The notes under the pieces were generated by a model. That model worked only from the letters and a program-made list of their open reading frames with translations. It was not told the DNA's origin and ran no database searches. A program made the translations under genes and the position numbers. Shown in pieces: positions 5,831 to 11,554 of a DNA stretch of 20,111 bases. Source of the stretch: a virus; IMG/VR virus record IMGVR_UViG_3300021976_000084, positions 1 to 20,111 of that record. One strand, given 5' to 3'. The number at the start of each line of letters is the position of its first letter. The first letter of the stretch is position 1.

Positions 5831-6298
5831 GTGTTGATGCCTACCCGCGAGGTCCCCCGGACCAAGATCTGTTCGCGCTGCCAGGCAGAGAAGCCGGCCG
5901 AGGCATTCCAGCGGAACAAGCGGATGAAGACCGGCTTGTCGACCTACTGCCGGGAGTGCTCGGCCGAGGTCAGCCGGACGTATCGAGCCGAGCACCCCGA
6001 GAAGTTCGCCGGGTATGAGGCGACCCGAGTGCGGACCACTGAGCAGCGGTGGGCGGCCAAGCTGTGGATCACCTATCGGATTCGTCCGGCCGAGTACTAC
6101 CGGATGCTCGAGCAGCAGCTGGGGCGTTGCGCGGTCTGCTATGAGCCGGCCGAGGGCAAGCTCAACGTTGATCACGACCACGAGACCGGGAAGGTGCGCG
6201 GCCTCCTCTGCCTCAACTGCAACCTGATGCTGGGGCACGCTCGAGACAACGCCGCGACGCTGGCCGCGGCCATCACCTACTTGGAGAGCCATGCATAA
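5831..6298 (+). CDS. HNH endonuclease, recombination endonuclease VII family
   Basis: The 155-residue protein resembles T4 endonuclease VII-like nucleases, which use a zinc-stabilised beta-beta-alpha-metal fold. The C-terminal half carries paired cysteines C100/C103 and C127/C130 around the catalytic VDHDH at 113-117, followed by TGKVRGLLC. The N-terminal part has a second Cys cluster (CSRC and CREC), perhaps a zinc-binding DNA-contact module. The GTG at 5831 follows a GAGAGGA ribosome site; an in-frame ATG at 5837 is an alternative. The stop overlaps the protease gene by eight bases. Its position between portal and protease interrupts a normally contiguous order, so it is probably a free-standing homing-type endonuclease. 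A junction-resolving role in packaging is the alternative. Confidence 0.87.
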   Translation: MLMPTREVPRTKICSRCQAEKPAEAFQRNKRMKTGLSTYCRECSAEVSRTYRAEHPEKFAGYEATRVRTTEQRWAAKLWITYRIRPAEYYRMLEQQLGRCAVCYEPAEGKLNVDHDHETGKVRGLLCLNCNLMLGHARDNAATLAAAITYLESHA

Positions 6299-9139: not shown

Positions 9140-9176
9140 GCCGATGACGATCACGGGTTGCGCTACCGTTATCACC

Positions 9177-9644
9177 ATGCCGAACCCAATCACCGAGGAC
9201 GACTTCTGGGCCCGCACCGTGGAGACGGTCGAAGGTTGCCGACTCTGGACCGGGGCGATCAATACCCAATCTGGGCACGCCAGCGTCCACCGCAACGGCG
9301 CCGTATTCAGCGCCTCTCACCTGGCGCTCGAGTTCGCCGGGGTTGAGGTCCCGGACGGCTGGGCAGTCGACCACCTCTGCCACACTCACGACTGGACGTG
9401 CGAGGCCGGTGCCAGCTGCCTGCACCGCCGGTGTGTTAACCCCGACCACCTCGAGCCAGTGCCCCAAGGCGAGAACGAGCGCCGAGCCCGCCACCGTCTC
9501 CGGTTCTGCAAGCGCGGCCACGAGTTCACACCCGAGAACACGCTGGCCGTTTCGATCAAGGCCGAGGGCCGAGTCGCCCAAGGTTGCCGGACCTGCCGCC
9601 GAGAAGCCGCCGCGCGGCACCGAGCCAAGAAGGCCCGGGCATGA
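9177..9644 (+). CDS. HNH endonuclease, HNH_3-like
   Basis: From the ATG at 9177 the protein is 155 residues. It opens with the DDFWARTVETVEGCRLWTGA pattern typical of phage HNH_3-type nucleases. The catalytic region is VDH at 64-66 and CVNPDH at 86-91. A CKRGH...CRTC zinc-binding ending follows. In-frame ATGs at 9144 and 9075 exist. The 9144-9176 stretch has atypical third positions and no family similarity, so 9177 is preferred, although no ribosome site precedes it. The stop overlaps the head-closure ATG as ATGA. It interrupts the adaptor/closure pair, so a free-standing homing endonuclease is likely. It is a sibling of the gene at 11047. Confidence 0.88.
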   Translation: MPNPITEDDFWARTVETVEGCRLWTGAINTQSGHASVHRNGAVFSASHLALEFAGVEVPDGWAVDHLCHTHDWTCEAGASCLHRRCVNPDHLEPVPQGENERRARHRLRFCKRGHEFTPENTLAVSIKAEGRVAQGCRTCRREAAARHRAKKARA

Positions 9645-10259: not shown

Positions 10260-10568
10260 GTGCGCCCGGTCCAGCTGGCCCGCCGAGGGCTGCAGGCGAT
10301 CCTCGAGTCTTCCGAGACCGAGGCTCGCCTGCTGGCACTCGCCGAGGTCGGCGCGGACACGGCGCGCCGCCGATGCCCCGTGGGCACCCGACCGCGCGGC
10401 CGGCGGCCACATCTCCGAGACACCATCAAGGCCAGCTCTGAGCCCGGCCGGGCCGTCTACAGTTACGGCCAACCGCACGGCCTGCTGGTCGAGAAGGGCA
10501 CTGTCAAGATGCGGAAGCAGCCCTTCATGCTGCCGGGGGTCGACGCGATGAAAGCCGCACTTCGATGA
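10260..10568 (+). CDS. HK97 gp10-like head-tail joining protein
   Basis: A 102-residue basic protein. It matches the layout of HK97 gp10-like proteins: an N-terminal helix (ILESSETEARLLALAEVGADTA), then RRPHLRDTIKAS, then GLLVEKGTVKMRKQPFMLPG near the end. The EKGT...QPFMLPA/G phrase is characteristic of this family, which acts at the head-tail interface before the tail terminator. The start is the GTG at 10260, with GGAG 12 bases upstream, a weak site. Its TGA overlaps the next ATG as ATGA. Confidence 0.82.
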   Translation: MRPVQLARRGLQAILESSETEARLLALAEVGADTARRRCPVGTRPRGRRPHLRDTIKASSEPGRAVYSYGQPHGLLVEKGTVKMRKQPFMLPGVDAMKAALR

Positions 10569-11050
10569 GCTGGCCCCTGATCGGCGACTCCACCGATCTG
10601 CTGCCCGATCCTGACGGCACCGATCTGCTGCCCGATGCCGAGAACGCCCACCGGGTCTGGCTCCGCAACAAGGTGGCCCTGGTCGGTACCCGCGTGTTCT
10701 TCGTCTTCCCCGAGAAGGGGCGACCGCTCGTCCGGGAGAGCCCGGACGAGCCGCCCGGCCCCGGCGACAAGCCGGCCCTGATCACCCTGCAGCGGACCGG
10801 CGGCGCCCCCCAGCTCGGCGAGGCGCTGCTCGACGACCTCCGGCTCGACTACGACGTCTGGGCCCTCAACAAGAAAGACGCCAGCACGGCCATGAGGTCG
10901 CTGGTGTCGCTGCTGCGGAGCACCGCCGGCATCCTGCTCGACGGCTCGACCTACCTCTACGGGGTCCAGGTCGAGTCGGTCCTGTGGGTGCCAGATGACA
11001 CGGCCAAGCTGGCTCGGTATGTCGTCACCGGAACGAGCACGGTCCGATGA
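10565..11050 (+). CDS. Tail terminator protein
   Basis: A 161-residue protein in the slot just before the major tail protein, after removing the inserted endonuclease gene. Tail terminators cap the tail tube and join it to the head. The core LRLDYDVWALNKKDASTAMRSLV with a helical segment, then TYLYGVQVESVLWVPDD, fits the family. Two oddities are visible. The N-terminus carries a nine-codon tandem duplication (TDLLPD repeated). The C-terminus VVTGTSTVR is nearly repeated at the end of the endonuclease gene downstream. The ATG overlaps the previous stop and its own TGA overlaps the endonuclease ATG. Confidence 0.75.
   Translation: MSWPLIGDSTDLLPDPDGTDLLPDAENAHRVWLRNKVALVGTRVFFVFPEKGRPLVRESPDEPPGPGDKPALITLQRTGGAPQLGEALLDDLRLDYDVWALNKKDASTAMRSLVSLLRSTAGILLDGSTYLYGVQVESVLWVPDDTAKLARYVVTGTSTVR
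10591..10636 (+). repeat. 27-base tandem duplication in the tail terminator gene
   Basis: A 19-base segment (caccgatctgctgcccgat) occurs at 10591-10609 and again, identical, at 10618-10636, a period of 27 bases or nine codons. It encodes TDLLPD twice (TDLLPDPDG then TDLLPDAEN). The exact identity points to a recent in-frame slip or duplication. Confidence 0.85.
11021..11050 (+). repeat. 3'-end repeat, copy 1 (end of tail terminator gene)
   Basis: These 30 bases encode VVTGTSTVR plus the stop. Compared with 11473-11502, 24 of 30 bases match, and 21 of the last 24. Two of the three differences in that last part are silent third-position changes (acg/acc, gtc/gtg) and one turns Gly into Ala. 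Both copies end on a stop codon in frame. Confidence 0.8.
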
Positions 11051-11502
11051 TTGAGCAGCGGATGGCTGGTAAGTTCACGGTCCTCGAGGGCGGCTGCTGG
11101 CGCTGGGATCGGGCGGCCAACAAGGGCTACGGCGTGCTCCGGGTAGGGGCTCGCATGGAGTACGTCCACCGGCTGATCTGGGCCGAGCGGAACGGGCCGG
11201 TGCCGGAAGGCCGCCAGGTCGATCACTACCTATTCCCGGAGACGTGCATCGGCTCGCTGTGCGTTAACCCTGACCACCTCCGGCCGGCCACGACTTGGGA
11301 GAATAGCCTGCGGAGCAGCGCTCCCTGGTCGGCCAACCGAGCCAAAGAGGCATGCCTTAGAGGCCACGCCTTTGACCCAGTTAACACGAGGGTCGCCCCT
11401 GACGGGGAGCGAGTCTGCCGCGCGTGCTGCAGGCTCAGAATGCAGGCCGCCCGACGGCGCGCCAGAGTAGACGTGACCACCGCAACGAGCACCGTGCGAT
11501 GA
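11047..11502 (+). CDS. HNH endonuclease, HNH_3-like, with extra C-terminal tail
   Basis: A 151-residue nuclease of the same type as the one at 9177. It has a WRWDRAANKGYGVLR opening, VDH at 58-60, CVNPDH at 72-77, and a CLRGH...CRAC zinc-binding ending. After the last Cys pair both siblings continue for a basic stretch, but this one has nine more residues (VTTATSTVR). Those nearly copy the end of the tail terminator. The ATG overlaps the terminator TGA (ATGA at 11047-11050), so translation is probably coupled. It separates the terminator from the major tail gene. Likely a free-standing homing endonuclease that inserted at the terminator's 3' end (inference). Confidence 0.87.
   Translation: MIEQRMAGKFTVLEGGCWRWDRAANKGYGVLRVGARMEYVHRLIWAERNGPVPEGRQVDHYLFPETCIGSLCVNPDHLRPATTWENSLRSSAPWSANRAKEACLRGHAFDPVNTRVAPDGERVCRACCRLRMQAARRRARVDVTTATSTVR
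11473..11502 (+). repeat. 3'-end repeat, copy 2 (end of HNH gene)
   Basis: These 30 bases encode VTTATSTVR plus the stop and pair with the copy at 11021-11050. They add a tail not present in the sibling endonuclease. They may be the original 3' end of the tail terminator gene, now read as the end of the inserted gene. Confidence 0.75.
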
Positions 11503-11514
11503 TCCTCACGAACC

Positions 11515-11535
11515 GCGACGCCGGACCCGGCGCGC
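11515..11535 (+). other. Stem-loop upstream of the major tail gene
   Basis: gcg, a bulged A, cgccg, a four-base loop (gacc), then cggcgcgc can fold into about eight G-C pairs. It lies in the 52-base gap before the major tail gene. No T-run follows, so it is not a typical intrinsic terminator. In such GC-rich DNA a chance hairpin is quite possible. Confidence 0.35.
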
Positions 11536-11554
11536 AGATGAGAAAGGAATCGGG

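Follow-up and report, generated by a model that had tools for sequence, protein, structure and literature searches.

Free-standing endonuclease genes flanked by a copied end of their host gene are known from the mitochondria of Allomyces and Glomus, where they lie in atp6 of Allomyces macrogynus and in atp6, atp9, cox2 and nad3 of Glomus (PMC3630166). The endonuclease ORF of these mORFs stands between a diverged copy of the host C-terminus, which the gene uses, and the native end, which is displaced downstream, and the differences between the two copies are mostly silent (PMC3630166). The phage locus described here is similar in that a free-standing homing-type endonuclease gene is flanked by two host 3' ends, the upstream copy being in use. 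However, the fungal mORFs are mitochondrial, encode LAGLIDADG or GIY-YIG enzymes and have copies of ~50–280 nt, whereas our gene is from a phage, encodes an HNH protein and has copies of 26 nt. The donor origin of the fungal copies is backed by relatives (PMC3630166), whereas our comparison is one between the two copies themselves.

In phages, the nearest described case is the ShiLan HNH insertion in mycobacteriophage DNA methylases, whose first 11 residues are very like the 11 host residues that follow the insertion (PMC11855218). The ShiLan copies are more alike as protein than as DNA, the copy in the insertion is nearer to uninvaded than to invaded genes, and the authors weighed the similarity as a sign of an intron (PMC11855218). 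As at our locus, a phage HNH gene lies between two similar stretches of host gene, but the ShiLan insertion is in mid-gene and in frame with the host protein, with a hidden HNH in another frame (PMC11855218). By analogy, the ShiLan pattern fits the same process as the one considered here. The HNH insertion of phage Omega (gene 51) is reported to be accompanied by a new 3' end of lysin A (PMC3706429). The free-standing HNH genes of T4-like phages and mycobacteriophages are, like ours, small and placed at gene borders, but the extracts of the two accounts do not describe a duplicated, re-spelled gene end, and in the T4 type the cleavage site is distant from the nuclease gene (PMC2988022, PMC3706429). 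In the open-access literature, we found no paper presenting duplication of a host gene end as a habit of phage HNH genes.

The terminator/HNH junction

The window, that is, the whole stretch of DNA analysed, is an entire IMG/VR virus record of 20.1 kb, possibly a genome fragment. It encodes a siphovirus-type structural region, and its capsid protein is 43–48% identical to capsids of Arthrobacter and Gordonia phages. The gene order is terminase, portal, endonuclease VII, protease, capsid, head-tail adaptor, a first HNH gene, head completion, neck, tail terminator, a second HNH gene and major tail protein, genes without a profile match being named from gene order in relatives. The features that matter here are the following.

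9177–9644, + strand: sibling HNH gene (phrog_826, E=5.9e-35)
10565–11050, + strand: tail terminator gene, 161 aa, the invaded gene (phrog_123 tail terminator, E=1.9e-10; 26-member family alignment; model)
11026–11051, + strand: repeat copy A, the terminator 3' end with its stop codon and the overlapping HNH start codon (ATGA), coding for the last strand of the terminator and for R161
11047–11502, + strand: HNH endonuclease gene, 151 aa (PF13392, phrog_826, alignment A6)
11478–11503, + strand: repeat copy B, the last eight HNH residues and the stop codon, terminator-like and not HNH-like
11503–11554, + strand: 52-nt spacer 5' of the major tail gene, with that gene's likely ribosome-binding site AGAAAGGAA
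11555–12109, + strand: major tail (tail tube) protein gene (PF25681, E=3.4e-6; order in relatives)

The terminator gene ends GTC GTC ACC GGA ACG AGC ACG GTC CGA TGA and the HNH gene ends GTG ACC ACC GCA ACG AGC ACC GTG CGA TGA. The final 24 bases of the two genes are identical at 21 positions, both run in frame to TGA and only one of the three differences changes an amino acid, as the earlier note had reported. Aligned without gaps, the repeat spans 26 nt with 23 identities and extends one base beyond the stop codon. Local flanking repeats were scored at 80 HNH loci: the window HNH gene reached 18.5, more than any other gene, and the highest value among 401 control ORFs was 14.5. Over the last 27 nt the identity is 22/27, a value reached by none of 54,022 mismatched pairs of an HNH gene and an upstream gene (p <= 1.9e-5), and p stays below 1e-3 after correction for the roughly 20 pairs of adjacent genes that the window contains. 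The repeat is real and beyond chance.

The repeat is a terminator sequence by origin, and the HNH family does not otherwise have it. The upstream gene was identified as a tail terminator by its phrog_123 match, by its place before the major tail gene and by a predicted fold like those of the lambda gpU, T5 p142 and Mu terminators. Among 26 terminators from related contigs, the final strand follows approximately R-Y-x-x-T-x4-[VIL]-R, and the only invariant column of the alignment is R161, the last residue of the window terminator. The AlphaFold model of the terminator places residues 150–160 in a confident terminal strand. As a separate feature, a 27-bp tandem repeat (85% identical) lies near the 5' end of the terminator gene (window 10586–10639) and yields TDLLPDPDGTDLLPDAE.

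The downstream protein belongs to HNH_3 (PF13392, 34.3 bits against a cut-off of 24.8, E=1.9e-8) and to phrog_826 (E=1.1e-36, residues 3–146), and its HNH and zinc-binding residues are conserved in alignment A6. Judging from its family, it is presumably an active, mobile nuclease. Its model shows the tail as an extension of the last helix with falling confidence. The earlier note had named HNH homologues at other loci with the TSTVR tail as evidence against its insertion reading; STVR is carried by 0 of 232 other HNH genes. When nonapeptides were scored with BLOSUM62 against VTTATSTVR, the best C-terminus of another HNH protein reached 8 and the terminator end 32. The earlier note had also pointed to tail length, and its figures stand, with 19 residues after the start of the last CxxC in the sibling and 28 here. 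This argument is weak alone because tails differ widely in length: the median after the last CxxC is 21 residues (quartiles 18–25), 12 of 80 homologues have at least 28, and the tails of the PapayaSalad and Ignacio homologues are about as long as that of the window HNH protein.

The locus can be compared with an uninterrupted one. In all six related phages examined, which are distant, the terminator gene directly precedes the major tail gene and the HNH gene is absent there. When the HNH body and one copy are taken out of the window, so that the flanks meet at the repeat, the terminator reads through in full (161 residues, with VVTATSTVR as its end), and the 52-nt spacer to the tail gene is unchanged in this reconstructed empty site. 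The window thus has the mORF arrangement: two copies of the terminator end flank the HNH ORF, and the terminator is intact through the adjacent copy. Viral contigs, phage records and genome contigs gave no close relatives of the terminator, with or without the HNH gene; DNA-pattern searches for the shared end gave no match, and the capsid and distal tail proteins, used as single-sequence anchors in viral contigs, gave no loci. A capsid profile retrieved 80 distant loci, with terminators related to that of the window at the profile level only. In one related phage contig (L058, 9723–10298), an HNH gene lies directly 3' of the major tail gene, one gene beyond the position it has in the window.

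Copied gene ends at other HNH genes

A position-restricted protein comparison of 233 HNH genes yielded, besides the window, one further 3' case (L265) and four 5' mirror cases (L145, L193, L218 and L253). At L265, the C-termini are NEARAAGVCA for the upstream gene and QEARAAGVAF for the HNH protein, and the seven codons they share have four differences, all of them silent (p=0.0017 for the protein match; 18/27 bases, p=0.0013); taken alone, this 3' case is suggestive. The 3' matches at L200 and L300 were rejected as junction motifs, and a weak match at L263 was left out of the count.

In the 5' cases, the start of the HNH protein is a re-spelled copy of the start of the next gene. The HNH start is INFTIPGTPVAKG at L218, where the RusA gene begins ISFTIPGAVVGKG, and both look like genuine RusA starts because RusA relatives begin FTIPGQPVAKGRPKF. 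The corresponding pairs are NLSDARTELGDR and the tail protein start NLSDARAEVGER at L253, KKMTGVSLFAG and the DNA methyltransferase start KQLTGVSLFAG at L145, and QLLLAPVRHLYR and the next gene's start QMTLSPVRTLYR at L193. These four cases exceed the 99.9% threshold of the null, where 0.33 were expected. At L218, L253 and L193, the HNH stop and the downstream start overlap as ATGA, and a purine-rich stretch of ribosome-binding type lies within the C-terminal codons of the HNH gene. The copies in the four 5' cases are 50–73% identical in DNA, and over all six cases, window included, 33 of 48 changed codons are silent. Such DNA divergence with mostly silent changes would be the look of two working gene ends that diverged separately, although the 5' cases are biased towards silent change because they were selected by protein similarity.

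Two of these loci have further peculiarities. The downstream gene is frameshifted a few codons past the copy at L145 (2892–2960, an extra TA in GGTATATAGGCGGG) and at L253 (2920–2970, an extra T in GGCTTTTGAC), through either assembly error or real damage or a repair scar. At L253, the likeness extends upstream of the copied start, with GTGATGCCG standing ahead of the HNH gene and again ahead of the next gene (2425–2450 and 2895–2923).

The copied-end arrangement belongs to a minority of HNH genes, since no clear case emerged among 17 HNH genes from isolate phages or among 36 others. The earlier note had spoken of a host-gene-sparing insertion strategy, and that word is too strong because most of the HNH genes examined have no such copy.

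Origin of the shared end

An insertion that duplicated the gene end is the simplest account of the locus. Entry of the nuclease gene at the 3' end of the terminator gene would leave the last eight to nine terminator codons present twice. The terminator would use copy A and so keep its terminal strand, while the HNH gene would start on the terminator stop codon (ATGA) and acquire from copy B some extra residues at its C-terminus. To judge by the parallel cases, the gene most likely came from a related phage by break-repair recombination; the donor's end of the terminator gene, slightly diverged, would have entered together with the nuclease gene and displaced the recipient's end downstream. We therefore regard insertion of a free-standing homing-type HNH gene, with break-repair as the favoured route, as the probable origin of the two copies, and we infer both the insertion history and the donor origin. 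Recombination between the copies would delete the nuclease gene, and the terminator would still be functional. Much of the earlier note's insertion reading holds, given a non-chance, terminator-native repeat, an intact terminator and relatives without the HNH gene. Its assignment of the upstream copy as imported and the downstream copy as original is less secure: by their sequence, three differences in 24 bases would fit an imported, diverged end and a drifted local duplication alike.

The main competing explanation is that some 26 bp of the recipient's terminator end were copied in the act of insertion (through a staggered break that was filled in, through template switching or through microhomology repair) and that the two copies, identical at first, then drifted, no donor end being involved. 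In its favour, identity between the copies is 88% over 26 nt, the base past the stop codon being part of the match, and three changes of which two are silent would be ordinary under drift (17% of random three-change sets have at least two silent codon changes). Against it, the copies of the parallel cases are merely 50–81% identical in DNA and 30 of 43 changed codons at the five non-window loci are silent, a divergence that suits ends which diverged as working genes, with the caveat that the selection of the 5' cases by protein similarity over-represents silent changes. We judge this local duplication unlikely, although it deserves serious consideration.

There are two further explanations. 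Two gene ends rich in Thr, Ser, Val and Arg could have become alike by chance or convergence in a GC-rich genome with ATGA junctions, for example through translation-start motifs, and weak junction-motif matches do exist, L200 and L300 reaching 18/27 through GGAGCATGA-type ends. However, the 22/27 match has no equal among the mismatched pairs, copy B is not followed by a gene start and the shared stretch contains no Shine-Dalgarno motif, which makes such an origin very improbable. Selection could instead keep the ends alike if the nuclease tail imitated the terminator, for example by binding the terminator ring or a partner, and both copies have indeed kept the reading frame and a similarity of eight residues. 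We give this mimicry slightly less credence still: the shared sequence is modelled as a strand in the terminator but, with falling confidence, as a prolonged helix in the HNH protein, and the parallel cases copy unrelated proteins (RusA, a methyltransferase, a tail protein), which favours a by-product of insertion over mimicry.

The finding in the window gains interest because the arrangement recurs, and at both gene ends. A free-standing homing gene is constrained to leave essential genes unbroken and its own carrier uncut. Both constraints could be satisfied by a short duplicate of the host gene's end in other codons, whose changes, as the earlier note proposed, might destroy the cleavage site; such duplicates would also explain how homing genes come to lie at gene borders and how phages shuffle gene ends among themselves. 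A tentative generalisation, possible but on balance doubtful, is that HNH homing genes of phages have repeatedly entered essential genes at one end or the other, each as a cassette with that end re-spelled, so that the host gene works and the carrier is resistant to the nuclease it encodes; this would amount to a natural gene drive with a recoded rescue. The pattern is known from fungal mitochondria; here it involves both gene ends and several unrelated phage or prophage genes, which turns it into a testable general rule.

Other nuclease genes

Neither the endonuclease VII gene nor the sibling HNH gene of the window has a flanking repeat above background. The endonuclease VII gene lies between portal and protease (window 5831–6298), as it does in Arthrobacter phage Kumotta (L003, 4506–5042), and Arthrobacter phage Shoya has none at that place. 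The portal/protease position is a second mobile nuclease site common to different genera.

The sibling HNH gene was compared with the head-completion gene at 9641 as a candidate 5' copy. Its first residues, MTITGCATVIT, could be an old start of the head-completion gene, the start sequences compared being too variable to go further. The sibling frame (9144–9644) has an in-frame ATG at 9144, 33 nt ahead of the start at 9177, and its stop codon overlaps the following start as ATGA, like the 5' copy cases. Finally, one bacterial genome (G462, C1 90151–90657) has three adjacent matches to the C-terminal zinc part only of phrog_826, looking like a tandem of the zinc module.
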